NCBI RefSeq assembly: GCF_000585375.1
Contig: NZ_KK073874.1
Span: forward strand, 5,982,894 to 6,046,893
From: Cryptosporangium arvum DSM 44712
Lineage (GTDB): Bacteria > Actinomycetota > Actinomycetes > Mycobacteriales > Cryptosporangiaceae
DNA: 64,000 bases
Reading direction: 5' to 3'
The translations under genes were made by a program, and so were the position numbers. The notes under the pieces are model-generated. The model worked only from the letters and a program-made list of their open reading frames with translations, was not told where the DNA came from and did no database searches. This document shows, piece by piece, positions 24,574 to 30,378 of the stretch; the stretch's first letter is position 1; every line of letters starts with the position of its first letter.

Positions 24574-26319
24574 TCAGTGGTGTTTCGGGCCGGGCGTGTG
24601 GGGCGGTGTCACCCGGGCCCGGCCGACGACACCGTCGGTGTTCTCGTCGCCCAGCACCGGGATCGAACCGGTGTCGGTGAGACCGACCGGCGCGGGGCCT
24701 GCCACGGCGGGGCCGGCAATGGCAGGTCCGGCCGCGCCGGCCGGGGTCGATGCGGCCAGCGACTGGCCGGGCCGGTCCGAGCTGTAGGGCCCGGCCGGGG
24801 TCGGTGCGGCCTCCCCGCCCGGGGCGGGGAGGCCGGTGGGGGCCGGGCCGAGCGGGAGAGCGACGCCGAACTGCGTGACGCCCTCGTCGGCCCGGCCGTG
24901 CTGCATGCCGTCGCCGGACCGGCCGTGCTGCGTCCCGGGTTCCGGGCCCAGCAGCGGCACCTCGCCGGTGTGGTAGACCGACGGCAGGTCGGTCAGCGAG
25001 ATCCCGTGGTGACGCCCGGCGCGGGCGGTCCACCCGGAGCCGTCGGGCTGCTGGGCGGCGGCACCGTCGAACGTGTTGCCGTACGGGCCGGTCTGTCCCA
25101 GCGCGATCGGACCCAGCGGGTCGATCGCCGCGTACGGGCCGGTCGGGACGTCAGCTCCGCCGATGGGGTCCCCGGGGCCGGAGCGGGCGCTGCCGACGCT
25201 GCCGACGGGGCCGCTGACTGGGCCGGGGGCGCCGCCCGGGGCCGGTGCGCTCTGGCCATAGGCGCCGCTCACCGGCATCGGACCCCACGCTCCGCTCACC
25301 GGCATCGCCGGACCGGCGCCGTAGGCACCGCTGACCGGGGCCGACGGTGATCCGTACGCGCCGCTCACCGGCGCGGCCGGGGTCGGGCCGGGAAAAGGGC
25401 CCCCGTGGTCGTTCCCACCGTTCGCACGGCGCGGGGGGTACGGGCCGTTGGGGCCCGTCGCCGCACCGGGCTGCGGCGACGGGCGGTCGTAGCCGAGGGC
25501 CGGCAGCCGGCCACCGGGGTACCCCAGCTGGTCCGAACCCGCCCGGGGCGGCTGCGGCGTCGGCATCATCGGCAGCCGCGGCGCGGGCCAGGTGGGGCCG
25601 GGACGCAGCTGCGGGGGGTGCGGCCCGGGCAGGAGCCGCTCCTGACCGGCCACCATCCGTGGCTTCAGCGCCGGGGCGCCCACCGGAGCCGGAGCACCCA
25701 GCGCCCGGGCCAGATGATCTCCGTTCACCCGCTCGCTCCGCACCCGCTCGCTGCGGAGCTTCTCGCTAGCGACCTCCAGTGCCACGATCGTGGCCTCCTT
25801 CCGACGTCGTTTCTGTCCTCGCCGGGTCCATCCCGGAGCGAAGTACCACCAGGTCAGGAACCACAGCAGGGTGCCACCGGTGATGGGGAGCGCGAACGAG
25901 GTGCCCATGACGACGTCGAGGATCAGCAGCAGGACGCCGTTGACCGCGAGCATCATCAACGTGACACCCCAGAACGCGAACCGGCTCGACGCCTTCACCA
26001 GCTGCGCCTCGAGCCGGCGCCGGAAGACCAGCCGGTGGAACGGGGCCGGGGCGATCAGCAGGCAGGTGGCGCCCGCGACGAGCACCAGGCTCACCACGTA
26101 GACCATCCGCTGGAAGCGGGTCGTCTCGTCGAACCCGCTCGTGAACGCCAGCGTGAGCAGGAACACGAGCAGGAGCTGCGTGCCGATCTGGGCGGCGCGG
26201 GTCTCCTGCAGGATCTCCAGGTAGTTCCGGTGCCACCGCTGGGTCGGGGTTTCCTGCGTCCGGGGGTCCCGTCTTTCGTTCCGGTCCGACGAGCGGCCCG
26301 TGGTCAGTTCCGCAGACAT
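24574..26319 (-). CDS. DUF6328-type membrane protein with long Pro/Gly-rich repeat tail
   Basis: A 581-residue protein. Residues 30-170 resemble DUF6328: RWHRNYLEILQETRAAQIGT, then four hydrophobic helices (LLLVFLLTLAFTSGF, YVVSLVLVAGATCLLIAPAP, GVTLMMLAVNGVLLLILDVV, PITGGTLLWFLTWWYF). A basic segment GQKRRRKEATI leads into about 380 residues of low-complexity Pro/Gly/Ala tail with recurring PVSGAYG/PVSGAWG and TGPY units, far longer than the usual DUF6328 protein. ATG 26319 follows GGAAGGGCGGGG. A 30-nt element 53 bp upstream is repeated before the SMR-like operon, suggesting co-regulation. Function unknown. Confidence 0.75.
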   Translation of the reverse strand: MSAELTTGRSSDRNERRDPRTQETPTQRWHRNYLEILQETRAAQIGTQLLLVFLLTLAFTSGFDETTRFQRMVYVVSLVLVAGATCLLIAPAPFHRLVFRRRLEAQLVKASSRFAFWGVTLMMLAVNGVLLLILDVVMGTSFALPITGGTLLWFLTWWYFAPGWTRRGQKRRRKEATIVALEVASEKLRSERVRSERVNGDHLARALGAPAPVGAPALKPRMVAGQERLLPGPHPPQLRPGPTWPAPRLPMMPTPQPPRAGSDQLGYPGGRLPALGYDRPSPQPGAATGPNGPYPPRRANGGNDHGGPFPGPTPAAPVSGAYGSPSAPVSGAYGAGPAMPVSGAWGPMPVSGAYGQSAPAPGGAPGPVSGPVGSVGSARSGPGDPIGGADVPTGPYAAIDPLGPIALGQTGPYGNTFDGAAAQQPDGSGWTARAGRHHGISLTDLPSVYHTGEVPLLGPEPGTQHGRSGDGMQHGRADEGVTQFGVALPLGPAPTGLPAPGGEAAPTPAGPYSSDRPGQSLAASTPAGAAGPAIAGPAVAGPAPVGLTDTGSIPVLGDENTDGVVGRARVTPPHTPGPKHH

Positions 26320-26371
26320 AGCAACCCCGCCCTTCCTTCGCTGGGAGAAGACTCGTCTAGCGCGAGTCGGA

Positions 26372-26401
26372 AGACATCGGTCGACTGACGTAGCCGCGAA
26401 G
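26372..26401 (-). promoter_or_regulatory. Shared 30-nt upstream element, copy 1
   Basis: This stretch is identical at 29 of 30 positions to 29717-29746; on the plus strand it contains GACATCGGTCGACTGACGTA. Both copies precede minus-strand genes by 50-80 bp, which suggests a common activator site or promoter. A secondary GTACGT hexamer lies 59 bp away here and 49 bp away in copy 2, a difference of one helical turn. Confidence 0.6.
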
Positions 26402-26532
26402 GAGCGCCCGCGGACGGGGCACCGGCTGACGTACGTAGGGGTCCGGGGCGCAGCCACAGACCGGGCACAGTGGACTGTCTGACACCCGGACGTCGCCGGC
26501 GGACGGACGGTGGGACACCCAGTGGCGCATGG

Positions 26533-27513
26533 TCACACCGCCGCTTCGAGCCGGCGCTGCCCGTACCCGGTGGACACGGCGGTCGCGCCGGACGGGAACG
26601 GCGCGTCGATCGGCCGGTACATCGGCCGCGGGCCGGGTTTGCGCCGCGGGAAATACCGGTGGTAGATCTCCAGCCGGGCCGAGGCGGTCGGCGGCACCAT
26701 GCCGGCCCGCCCGAACGAGTGCAGGATCGCCTGGTGGAGAACCCGAGCGGCTTCCTGGAGCGCGAAACCCTCGGCGCGGGCGCCCTCCGGCGCCAGACAG
26801 CGGGCGATCATCGGCAGCGCGTTGTAGCGGTTCTGGTCGGCGAGCTCCCGGGCCGCGATCTCGAACGCGACGTAGAAGCCGGAGAACGCGACCGGGTAGG
26901 CGAGCACGTCGGTGAAGTGCAGCCGGTGGCGTGCCAGCGCGGGCACCGCGTACCAGCGCAGGCCGAGCTGGGCGAACCAGGCGTAGCCGGGGTGCTCCAG
27001 GTTGACCTCGAGCACGCGCTCGGGCGACAGCTCGTAGGCGATCACCGGCCCGCCGTGCACGCGCAGCAGCAACGGCAACACGTCGAACGGACCGGGCAGG
27101 AGCCGGCCGCCGTCCACCGGGCGCCCGCCCGGCCAGCCGGCCCGCAGCGCGAGCGTGGTCAGCTCGAGGTGGCGTGGATCGCCCAGGATCGATCCGTCCG
27201 CCTGCTGGTAGCCGGCATAGCCGACGAGCTGCTCGTTGAGGATCTCCACCGCCGGGTCGAGCACGGTGGCCACCGAGCGGATCTTCCCGTCCCGGGTGGC
27301 GACCCGGAGGTGTTCGGCCAGCCCGGAGGCGACCGCGTCCGGGTCGGTGACGCCACGCAGATCACGGACCTGCAGGCCGCGCCAGCGCAGGCGGCCGATC
27401 CCCTTGTCGGCGTTCGCCCAGGCAACCCTGGCCGCCCAGGCGAGTTGCTCGGTAGTCGGAATGGTCGGACCGGTGAGCTGCCCCCGGTCGGCCGCGGCGA
27501 GGTCGATTCGCAC
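26533..27513 (-). CDS. Nitric-oxide-synthase-oxygenase-like protein lacking the haem cysteine
   Basis: A 326-residue protein that follows the bacterial NOS oxygenase pattern. Matching blocks are GIGRLRWRGLQVRDLR (38-53), EHLRVATRDGKIR (67-79), LNEQLVGYAGYQQADGSILG (92-111), PFDVLPLLL (142-150), GLRWYAVPAL (184-193), SGFYVAFEIAARELADQNRY (211-230, the substrate-Glu helix; Glu218) and LHQAILHSFGRAG (259-271). In NOS the haem thiolate comes from Cys in RCIGR; here the sequence is KGIGR with Gly38 at that place, and no cysteine is nearby. The C-terminal pterin/dimer segment (WxWLIPP, ATHIFHR in known enzymes) is absent or replaced. Normal P450-like chemistry is therefore unlikely. GTG 27513 has GGAGGTG upstream. 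Last gene of a three-gene operon. Confidence 0.75.
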   Translation of the reverse strand: MRIDLAAADRGQLTGPTIPTTEQLAWAARVAWANADKGIGRLRWRGLQVRDLRGVTDPDAVASGLAEHLRVATRDGKIRSVATVLDPAVEILNEQLVGYAGYQQADGSILGDPRHLELTTLALRAGWPGGRPVDGGRLLPGPFDVLPLLLRVHGGPVIAYELSPERVLEVNLEHPGYAWFAQLGLRWYAVPALARHRLHFTDVLAYPVAFSGFYVAFEIAARELADQNRYNALPMIARCLAPEGARAEGFALQEAARVLHQAILHSFGRAGMVPPTASARLEIYHRYFPRRKPGPRPMYRPIDAPFPSGATAVSTGYGQRRLEAAV

Positions 27514-27538
27514 TTGGCACCTCCGTCGGTGGTCGGAC

Positions 27539-29074
27539 TCAGTCGCGCAGGACGCAGACCGTGGCGAGCGTGGGGTCGGCCGAGCCGTGGATGTGCATTC
27601 CGCTCGCGACCGCGCGGGTCAGCGCGGCGACGGCGTCGCCGTCGAGGCACTCACCGGGCATGACCGCGGGGACGCCCGGCGGGTACGGCGTGATGGGTTC
27701 GGCGCTGGTGCGCCCGACGGCCCGCTCCAGCGGGACGGTCTCGGTCGCGGCGAAGTGGGCCTCGCGCGGGGTGCAGACCTGGGTGCGCGGCGCCAGCAGC
27801 GCCTCGACCAGCCGGCCGTCCCAAGCCGGGCGCAGCAGCCGGCGCGGACGGCAAGACAGCGTCCGCAGCGCGGTGACCAGCGCGTCCACGACGTCCGGCG
27901 AGGTGCACGTGGTGATCGCGACGAACAGGTTGCTCTCGTCGGCGCCCTCCACGGCCACCGCCGGGTGCAGCAGCCCGCTGGTGCCAAGGCCGGGGCCGGG
28001 CGTCCGGAGCAGCCTCTCGATCTCGAGACCGGTGAGGCCCAGCCCGGCGACGCTGATGACCAGGCGCAGCGGGTCGAACCGCTCGGCCGGGACGCCGAGG
28101 TCCTCGGCTTCGGCCACCCGGACACCGGGGATCGCGGCCAGCCGCCGGCGGGCGTTCGCGACCAGTTCCAGGGTCCGGTCGAGCAGGGTGCGGCCGCGGC
28201 TGACCATCGTCCGGCGGGCGTCGTCGATGCTCGCGAGCACCGGCAGCAGCGGGCTGGTGGTCTGGGTCATCTGGACCACGCGGCTGATCCGGTCGGCCTC
28301 GAACCGGTCGCCCCTGGTGAAGATGATCGCGGCTCCGGACGGCGCGGCGAGCATCTTGTGCGCGGACGTGACCGACACGTCGGCGCCGACCGAGATCGCG
28401 TGCGCCGGCAGGTCGGGGTGGAACGGCAGGTGCGCGCCCCAGGCCTCGTCGACCATCAGCGGGGTGCCGTGGCGGTGGGCCACGTCGGCGAGCGCGCGGA
28501 CGTCGGAGCACGCGCCGGCGTACCCCGGGCTGACCATGCTCACCAGCCCGGCCCGGTGGCCCTGGGCGGACAGCCCGGTCAGCGTCTCGTCGAGCGCGGC
28601 CGGATCGATGCCGAGGCTGATGCCGAAGCCGCCCTCGTCGAGGCGCGGGGTGACCCAGTGCGGCGTCGCGCCGGAGAGGACCAGGCCGGCCAGCGTGGAC
28701 GTGTGGCTGTCGCGGGCGACGACGACGTGCTGGCTCGGCTGGGCCAGATGGACCGCCCGGTTGCCTCCGGACGAGCCGTCGAGCAGGAACAACGCGGTGT
28801 CGGCGCCCCAGGCGGCCGCGGCGAGCGCCTCGGCCTCGCGGCGGGCGTTCGTCGCGTCCGCGGGGGTCAGCCAGACGTCGGAGGCCAGGAACGTGTTCCC
28901 CAGCAGGGCGCGCAGGCCGGTGCCGACCGTGCGTCCGCCGGCGTGGCCGGGGACGTGCAGCGCGCCGGTCTCCAGGCCTCGGTAGTGGAGGATCGCGTCG
29001 ACCAGCGGGGCCGCGCTGTGGGCCGCGTCGAAGAGGACGGGCCGATCTCCGGAGGGCAGGGCAACGGCGGTCAT
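27539..29074 (-). CDS. Orn/Lys/Arg-decarboxylase-family PLP enzyme
   Basis: A 511-residue fold-type I PLP enzyme of the short (SpeA/YaaO-like) Orn/Lys/Arg decarboxylase family. GALHVPGHAGG (38-47) is the family N-terminal motif. DGSSGGNRA binds phosphate, His124 in RDSHTS should stack on PLP, Asp209 in VDEAWGAH pairs with the pyridine nitrogen, and Lys240 in TSAHKML is the Schiff-base lysine. A C-terminal domain with PYPPGVPAVMPGE is also typical. The activity could be arginine, lysine or ornithine decarboxylation, or a related reaction. Its ATG overlaps the stop of the SMR-like gene (ATGA), and the NOS-like gene follows after 25 bp, so all three are one operon. Confidence 0.88.
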   Translation of the reverse strand: MTAVALPSGDRPVLFDAAHSAAPLVDAILHYRGLETGALHVPGHAGGRTVGTGLRALLGNTFLASDVWLTPADATNARREAEALAAAAWGADTALFLLDGSSGGNRAVHLAQPSQHVVVARDSHTSTLAGLVLSGATPHWVTPRLDEGGFGISLGIDPAALDETLTGLSAQGHRAGLVSMVSPGYAGACSDVRALADVAHRHGTPLMVDEAWGAHLPFHPDLPAHAISVGADVSVTSAHKMLAAPSGAAIIFTRGDRFEADRISRVVQMTQTTSPLLPVLASIDDARRTMVSRGRTLLDRTLELVANARRRLAAIPGVRVAEAEDLGVPAERFDPLRLVISVAGLGLTGLEIERLLRTPGPGLGTSGLLHPAVAVEGADESNLFVAITTCTSPDVVDALVTALRTLSCRPRRLLRPAWDGRLVEALLAPRTQVCTPREAHFAATETVPLERAVGRTSAEPITPYPPGVPAVMPGECLDGDAVAALTRAVASGMHIHGSADPTLATVCVLRD

Positions 29075-29637
29075 CGGTTCGCCGTCCTTTCACCGATGAC
29101 CGCCGTGCCGCCGGGCGCGCCGGACGGGCCGGCGCTCGGGGTGGGGGCGATCGAGACGGATTTGGTGGGCTTTCCGTTGGGCGCGAAGATCATGTAGGCC
29201 ATCAGGGCGAAGATCGCGGCCATCGCGAACCACTTCCCGGTGGGCACCACGACGCCGTTCGCGACTTTGTCCATGATCAGGACCCCGACCTGGACGCCGA
29301 CGATCCAGCCGAGCGTCACGGTGCCGAGCTCGGCCCAGTGGAGGCTCGCGGCGTAGACGGCGAACACTCCCAGGAAGGCGATCGCGCCGGCCGACCACCA
29401 GAGCTGGTGCCCGTCGGCCATGTAGCGGATCGCGCAGTAGCTGCCGATCAGGTCCAGGCCGGTCAGCGCGACCATCGCGACGAGCCCCATCGGGGAGAAC
29501 TCGATGAAGCTCTTGCCGGCCACGATCGGTTCGGCCAGCACGGACGCCACGGTCGGCTCGGTCAAAGCCGCGGGGAGACGGAAGACGTCAACGGCGGCTG
29601 GTGCCGACGCGGCGGTCAAAGTCGAATACATGGCCAT
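29071..29637 (-). CDS. Small four-helix membrane protein, SMR/EmrE-like
   Basis: A 188-residue protein with a soluble N-terminus of about 48 residues, four transmembrane helices (51-155) and a Pro/Ser-rich tail. The membrane part can be aligned by eye with small multidrug resistance (SMR) transporters. LDLIGSYCAIRYMADGHQLW corresponds to the EmrE segment around Glu14 with Asp62 replacing the Glu, and LGTVTLGWIVG puts Trp111 at the EmrE Trp63 position. SMR proteins are proton-coupled exporters of cations, including guanidinium (Gdx). The 188-residue length exceeds the usual 105-110. First gene of the operon with the decarboxylase-like and NOS-like genes; the 30-nt element lies 80 bp upstream. 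Identity is moderate and needs profile searching. Confidence 0.55.
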   Translation of the reverse strand: MAMYSTLTAASAPAAVDVFRLPAALTEPTVASVLAEPIVAGKSFIEFSPMGLVAMVALTGLDLIGSYCAIRYMADGHQLWWSAGAIAFLGVFAVYAASLHWAELGTVTLGWIVGVQVGVLIMDKVANGVVVPTGKWFAMAAIFALMAYMIFAPNGKPTKSVSIAPTPSAGPSGAPGGTAVIGERTANR

Positions 29638-29716
29638 CAGCGCTCCACTTCCTCACGGACTCGGCCCCGGCGGGTGTGTCCGTCGCTGTGAATACGCTCG
29701 CCCACTCTGCGTAATG

Positions 29717-29746
29717 AGACATCGGTCGACTGACGTAGACGCGAAG
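29717..29746 (-). promoter_or_regulatory. Shared 30-nt upstream element, copy 2
   Basis: Identical at 29 of 30 bases to 26372-26401, with an inner GTCGAC palindrome. It sits about 80 bp upstream of the SMR-like gene start in the otherwise empty interval 29638-29922. Its presence before both minus-strand units implies a shared regulator. Confidence 0.6.
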
Positions 29747-29922
29747 CGCGCAGCGCGGCCGTGCCGTACGTCTGCGGGAATTGCATTGCAGAGTCGGCGG
29801 TTCTACGGCGATCCGATGGGTCGAACGGTGGAGCGTGCGGTGGCCGCTCGGCGTGAGCGTGGAGGGAGCAGCAGGAGCACGCACGCGCCCGCCGGAAAGT
29901 TCAGACCGGTAGGGTCTGGCCG

Positions 29923-30378
29923 ATGTCCACCACGCCCCCACCGACGGCCGTCCGGTCGGTCGCGATCGCGCTGATCGTCGTCGGCGCGCTCGACCTGGTG
30001 TTCGCCGTCCTCGCGTGTTGCGGCCGGGTCGCGCGGCTCGGTCAGAGCGGCGACACCAACTTCACGTCCGACGCCGAGGCCGCCGGGTTCCTCACCTACA
30101 CGCTGCTGGCCGTGGCCTCGCTGCCGATCGGCGCCCTGGTCCTGACCGCGGGTGTGCTGCTGCTGCGGGGCCGGTCCCGGACGCTCGGCCAGGCCGGCGC
30201 GATCGCCGCGATGGTGCCGGTGTCCTGCTGCTTCCCGGTCGGCATCCCGGTCGGTATCTGGGCGCTGACGGTGCTCAAACGCGACGACGTCCGGGCGATG
30301 CTCGACCACCCCGGCGGCCCTCCCCCGGGCCCCGGCGGCTACCCGCCGCCCGGGGGTTACCCGCCGCCCGGGTACTGA
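29923..30378 (+). CDS. Small membrane protein with Pro/Gly/Tyr-rich tail
   Basis: A 151-residue hypothetical protein. A hydrophobic helix (SVAIALIVVGALDLVFAVLA) is followed by a loop and two or three more helices (LLAVASLPIGALVLTAGVLL, AAMVPVSCCFPVGIPVGIWA), then a cytoplasmic tail of PPGPGGYPPPGGYPPPGY. Such tails are frequent on actinobacterial DUF4190-like membrane proteins. It is divergent from the SMR-like operon and convergent with the MCP gene. Function unknown. Confidence 0.7.
   Translation: MSTTPPPTAVRSVAIALIVVGALDLVFAVLACCGRVARLGQSGDTNFTSDAEAAGFLTYTLLAVASLPIGALVLTAGVLLLRGRSRTLGQAGAIAAMVPVSCCFPVGIPVGIWALTVLKRDDVRAMLDHPGGPPPGPGGYPPPGGYPPPGY

Follow-up and report, generated by a model that had tools for sequence, protein, structure and literature searches.

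A nitric oxide synthase-fold protein with glycine in place of the axial cysteine is encoded with an Orn/Lys/Arg-type decarboxylase in Cryptosporangium

The stretch of DNA that we analysed (the window; 64,000 nucleotides of contig NZ_KK073874.1 from Cryptosporangium arvum DSM 44712) encodes a nitric oxide synthase (NOS) oxygenase-like protein, hereafter NOSL, in a unit with a decarboxylase gene (OKR) and a gene for a membrane-type protein (MEM). The features of this locus, given in window positions, are as follows.

29071..29637, minus strand: MEM, a four-helix membrane-type protein of 188 aa, with a 4-nt overlap with the start of OKR
27539..29074, minus strand: OKR, an Orn/Lys/Arg-type PLP decarboxylase of 511 aa (PF01276, 7.7e-43, and PF03711), with Lys240 of the SAHK motif at 28355-28357
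27520..27524, minus strand: GGAGG ribosome-binding site of NOSL, common to the four genomes of the genus that were examined
26533..27513, minus strand: NOSL, a NOS-oxygenase-like protein of 326 aa with a GTG start (PF02898, 4.2e-69; NOS fold)
27382..27420, minus strand: axial-ligand motif W-A-N-A-D-K-G-I-G-R-L-R-W (canonical form W-R-N-x-x-R-C-I-G-R-L-Y-W), with the codon of Gly38 at 27400-27402
26926..26928, minus strand: His196, aligned with a residue that is Met in 58/58 canonical rows (iNOS Met349)
26860..26862, minus strand: Glu218, which corresponds to the Glu that binds the guanidinium group in NOS, aligned with eNOS Glu361 and found in 4/4 genus members
26695..26700, minus strand: junction of residues 272-273, the site of ~33 absent residues (HHTES...WSW, the pterin segment)
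26653..26697, minus strand: retained C-terminal strand, VPPTASARLEIYHRY

The order MEM - OKR - NOSL, with NOSL last, and the 4-nt overlap between MEM and OKR were found in all four genomes of the genus. The gap between OKR and NOSL amounted to 25, 61 and 62 nt in three of them and was short in the fourth, where its length depends on the choice of the GTG. The ribosome-binding site and the GTG start of NOSL were identical in the four genomes; in one of them (G001), the second in-frame GTG is the one behind the conserved site, the first overlapping with the upstream gene. Neither a promoter-like site nor a terminator on the minus strand was detected in a consensus scan of positions 26200-29950. 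The genes that flank the unit (LuxR-type, DUF6328) are conserved across the genus as well. Shared transcription is therefore no proof of shared function, and gene order provides modest evidence. The operon with OKR, which the original prediction had not included, is the strongest clue to the function of NOSL.

OKR matched arginine decarboxylase 6q6i (phmmer, 1.5e-25) in both motif stretches, and its PLP lysine motif SAHKML (K240) and C-terminal PYPPGxP motif, RTSAEPITPYPPGVP, were invariant in 4/4 genomes. It has the PF01276 and PF03711 domains and the SAHK lysine motif in common with the Orn/Lys/Arg decarboxylases, but forms a divergent branch, with 35-45% identity to the full-length homologues found. 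Such homologues occur elsewhere in the order, and two genomes (G002 and G003) have second copies. Among the NOS loci compared, an OKR-type decarboxylase was present only beside NOSL, and the genome of a sister genus (G004) contained no match to OKR.

MEM belonged to no Pfam family. The possibility that it is an exporter of the small multidrug (SMR)/guanidinium type was dropped, as no such family was matched by eight members at E values up to 10. A PDB profile search with MEM gave chance matches only, and its model (pLDDT 52) was too poor for a structure search. Paralogues of MEM without its C-terminal extension, belonging to no known family, were found elsewhere in the genome of the window, in G001 and in G020 (L120, 4899-5351 on the minus strand; L121; L122; L123).

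NOSL is the sole PF02898 gene of the C. arvum genome, as determined by a profile search of that genome. The NO_synthase profile aligned with residues 19-271 (profile positions 46-295 of 362) with a score of 233.6 bits, the cut-off being 22.7, while an NCBIfam search gave no match. The best 60 of the 81 PDB matches obtained with phmmer were NOS alone, with human eNOS on top (1.1e-49). These results bear out the original prediction, which had recognised several NOS blocks, had read KGIGR for RCIGR and had placed Glu218 in the substrate helix: in the phmmer alignment Gly38 faced the axial Cys of the eNOS motif RCVGR, and Glu218 the substrate Glu. The predicted fold was also that of NOS. An AlphaFold2 model made with a 33-row alignment had a mean pLDDT of 74.7 and a pTM of 0.73; it was confident in the middle of the protein and weak for residues 1-15, 38-41 and 275-326, the axial loop 38-41 having a pLDDT below 50. 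The best 50 structure matches listed by Foldseek were all NOS oxygenase domains (query TM-score 0.69-0.72), and the 50 listed by VIA-align, which included the B. subtilis and Geobacillus enzymes, had Z values of 25.4-26.2 over 269-277 residues; the structural match to NOS that had been proposed as a check was thus obtained.

Compared with the bacterial NOS oxygenases of B. subtilis (1m7v) and Geobacillus (2flq), NOSL has the same fold over ~275 residues (VIA-align Z 25.5-25.9), the substrate Glu, the adjoining pocket residues, and the Trp and the I-G-R of the axial motif. It differs from them by a Gly in place of the axial Cys, a His in place of the invariant pocket Met, and the absence of the WSW/pterin segment and of the N-terminal helix. 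The same differences separate it from mammalian eNOS and iNOS, with which it shares the fold and 36-39% identity over ~265 residues in the Foldseek rows; in addition, it has neither the reductase nor the calmodulin parts of eNOS, iNOS and nNOS. At the position of iNOS Tyr341, NOSL also has a Tyr (Y188), whereas 54 of the 58 canonical actinobacterial rows have a His.

The C-terminal pterin region, which had been described as missing, is only in part so. About 33 residues, which in relatives comprise HHTES...WSW, are absent between AGM(272) and VPP(273), but the strand beyond them (VPP...IYHRY) is retained, with an unrelated tail rich in Pro and Arg after it. WSW presumably contains, as its second Trp, the equivalent of Trp457 of iNOS. 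The titles of PDB entries 1jwj and 1jwk designate Trp457 as the tetrahydrobiopterin site. Neither this segment nor the N-terminal helix is present in any of the four genus members; the helix is absent because translation of NOSL begins after the GGAGG, which lies immediately downstream of the OKR stop codon. Two residues were considered as substitutes for the axial ligand. Lys37 was rejected, since residue 37 is K in two genomes and R in the two others. The only obvious candidate for an alternative ligand would be His196, a residue that the original prediction had not pointed out and that is present in 4/4 genus members; the idea that it might form a metal pair with His199 was unsupported, because residues three apart on a strand probably face different sides.

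Much of the arginine pocket has been kept. The alignment indicated that Q95, Y188, P191, Y214, E218, R222, D226 and R229 are retained, as are the haem-stacking W32, I39-G40-R41, F210, G212 and much of the distal pocket. The Glu is the residue whose guanidinium-binding role is ascribed to Glu592 in nNOS (PMC6120233). Among the residues that line the iNOS pocket, one study mentions Met349, Trp366, Tyr367, Gln257 and Glu371 (PMC3472740), and another includes Met349 among docking contacts (PMC9696633). The changes observed in the NOSL pocket were R193K/R, R260G/S, V346L, M349H, N364S, W366F, T370F and D376E (iNOS numbering); the pocket may therefore take a ligand other than arginine. Charged or His residues peculiar to the NOSL subfamily are D36, D86, E90, H153, H196, H199 and E223. 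Within the genus, conservation of the pocket did not exceed that of the remaining positions (22/24 invariant positions versus 215/250; Fisher p 0.75).

The replacement of the Cys is not an accident of one genome. NOSL was present in 4/4 genus genomes examined with K/R-G-I-G-R in each, the three other proteins being 85-88% identical to that of C. arvum; the Gly, whose conservation among homologues had been proposed as a check, thus proved constant in the genus. In the sole other member of the family examined outside the genus (G004), we found a full NOS with R-C-I-G-R. A profile built on the four NOSL sequences matched 87/397 genomes of the order, with 708-727 bits for the four NOSL and 226 for the next best; in the phylum, it matched 9/396 genomes, the best besides the window's own scoring 214.8. 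We aligned 83 NOS rows, obtained by removing identical cores from 113 domain rows that came from a retrieved subset of NOS matches. The axial column contained Cys in 77 of them, Gly in four (the NOSL rows), and a gap and a Thr in one each, these last two being frame fragments. The canonical set of 58 was obtained by leaving out 25 rows (4 with Gly, 14 with truncations and 7 that were fragmentary or anomalous).

A degenerate DNA pattern for the axial motif, applied to 84,980 species, matched four stretches, none of them in a NOS frame, and so disclosed no other non-Cys axial motif of the kind that it covers. In place of the Cys codon it accepts every codon whose first base is not T, and hence misses Ser TCN, Tyr, Phe, Trp and Leu TTR, as well as motifs that have been rearranged; with a Cys codon, the same pattern recovered 57 of 63 distinct canonical-like rows. 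A 45-aa frame in L124 scored 11.8 bits (E 0.002), which reflects the 14-residue motif region itself, standing between stops. Inside these limits of the scan, the Gly form is restricted to one genus. Plasmid records with NOS matches numbered 14, all with less than 60% identity.

Several irregular genes were encountered in this survey. The NOS-like genes of L007/L011 (G035) and L092 (G572) are split across two frames and are either frameshifted or assembly errors, and a canonical NOS match in L034 (G184) reads through one TAG. A divergent NOS-like protein that has kept the Cys is encoded in genome G1004 (L084, 623-2460, and L099; PF02898, 1.8e-63); it begins inside the 3' end of a gene for a bacterial-globin domain (PF01152, 1.1e-21).

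Pairwise dN/dS across the four genomes was 0.12-0.21 for NOSL and 0.12-0.19 for OKR. NOSL is under purifying selection as strong as that acting on OKR. In the tree, from which four fragment rows were omitted, the NOSL stem branch had a length of 2.71 changes per column (support 100/100) and was followed by short tips; its placement among canonical NOS received only moderate support (88/89), and long-branch effects may have influenced it. NOSL would thus have changed in a single long burst and been constrained thereafter.

A second group of truncated NOS-like proteins was found in another family of the same order (f14, which we take to be Pseudonocardiaceae). Its 13 rows (L006, L086-L091, L093-L098) formed a clade of their own (100/100), apart from NOSL. 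Both groups are devoid of the WSW/pterin segment, but the f14 proteins retain the Cys (in W-C-P, W-C-T or W-C-G) and have lost the stacking Trp (replaced by Leu or Val) and the I-G-R. Like NOSL, some of them adjoin the gene of an enzyme of small-molecule metabolism: a TRZ/ATZ-family amidohydrolase gene directly follows the NOS-like gene in the seven W-C-P members (L006, L086-L091), as in L006, where the NOS-like gene (1423-2442) and the amidohydrolase gene (90-1418) both lie on the minus strand. No amidohydrolase was found within the short flanks examined of the six W-C-T/W-C-G members. Some genomes of this clade carry a canonical NOS besides. The f14 clade being separate from NOSL, the pterin segment was lost at least twice, each time in partial linkage with enzymes that metabolise amines or amidines.

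Oxygen activation of the established NOS type is impossible without a protein thiolate and pterin. NOSL, which has lost the thiolate ligand of the haem together with the N-terminal helix and the pterin segment, would make no NO by the NOS mechanism, and it is very probably not a thiolate-type NO synthase. Since the Glu that binds guanidinium has been kept, along with most of the pocket for arginine, binding of arginine or of a similar guanidino compound has most likely persisted, a proposal whose chances we put at somewhat better than even. As NOSL is translated from a unit with OKR and MEM, its most likely partner is OKR, and a guanidino pocket remaining beside a decarboxylase of the arginine/ornithine/lysine kind favours a partner that binds substrate or product. 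NOSL might accordingly be an arginine-responsive or product-binding companion of the decarboxylase, a pseudoenzyme that has kept substrate binding; we tentatively consider it a non-redox partner of OKR. The first interpretation, of a protein that may bind arginine without haem, use a different ligand or be a regulatory pseudoenzyme, is in part supported, in that the loss of the thiolate Cys and of the pterin segment is confirmed and the retained substrate residues make arginine binding plausible. Taken as a whole, the interpretation of NOSL as a NOS-fold pseudoenzyme that binds a guanidino ligand, works with OKR and does not synthesize NO has, in our estimation, a probability of about 45%. A point against the haem-free form of this interpretation is that W32, the I-G-R and the distal pocket have been kept, although they are not obviously needed without a planar cofactor.

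The same residues (W32, I39, G40, R41, F210, G212, Y214 and E218) would be explained if NOSL were a natural cavity haem protein, with haem held between W32 and the distal strand. The Gly would then leave the proximal site open to a small molecule or water; alternatively, His196 would be the ligand, from the distal side. Such a protein would be a sensor, a peroxidase or an NO-binding protein rather than an NO synthase. The exchange of a Met found in all canonical rows for a His in all four NOSL, at a position listed among iNOS pocket residues (PMC3472740), is consistent with this idea, but the poorly predicted axial loop, the loss of the segment that packs on the haem edge together with the pterin, and the probable orientation of His196 and His199 towards different sides make it rather unlikely.

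We regard as less likely again that NOSL is a new enzyme, whose NOS pocket would take the substrate or product of OKR and, with another cofactor or a metal, convert it to a new guanidino or amine metabolite. The operon with the decarboxylase, the long stem branch before divergence with strong constraint after it, and the seven charged or His residues new to the subfamily would fit this scheme, but NOSL contains no recognisable metal or nucleotide motif. It is very improbable that NOSL still makes NO by means of another thiolate or axial residue nearby: the fold and the substrate Glu remain, but there is no Cys in the motif, residue 37 is K or R, C239 (the only subfamily-specific Cys) is far along the chain from the axial motif, and the pterin segment is absent. 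A decaying pseudogene or an assembly error, which the joint loss of several canonical features might have suggested, was rejected, as the same Gly and the same deletion occur in full-length frames in four separately assembled genomes, with low dN/dS and a conserved ribosome-binding site.

The NOS fold is known. Our search of the open-licence PMC literature disclosed no NOS-fold protein that is under selection without the axial Cys and is encoded in a decarboxylase operon, no other NOS homologue devoid of this Cys, no NOS beside an arginine decarboxylase and no relevant work on the genus. A NOS-guided mining study retained homologues with more than 45% identity (PMC10831120); the best canonical row being 45% identical to NOSL, a search of this type would probably miss it.

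The axial cysteine is treated as defining for NOS, and here a selected lineage, represented by four genomes, does without it beside an arginine-type decarboxylase. As NOSL scores 233.6 bits on PF02898 without this Cys, the Cys should be checked before PF02898 matches are annotated as NO synthases. NOSL also offers a natural test of what the remaining fold can do, be it guanidino binding, the binding of haem without a thiolate, or another chemistry. That a NOS fold relieved of haem-thiolate oxygen chemistry now serves arginine-type decarboxylation, either as its dedicated partner or as a new enzyme with a switched cofactor, is a view that we hold with reserve, as it is on balance doubtful. If it is true, it would mean, together with the f14 clade, that NOS-fold proteins without the pterin segment were drawn into guanidino or amine metabolism without NO on at least two occasions.
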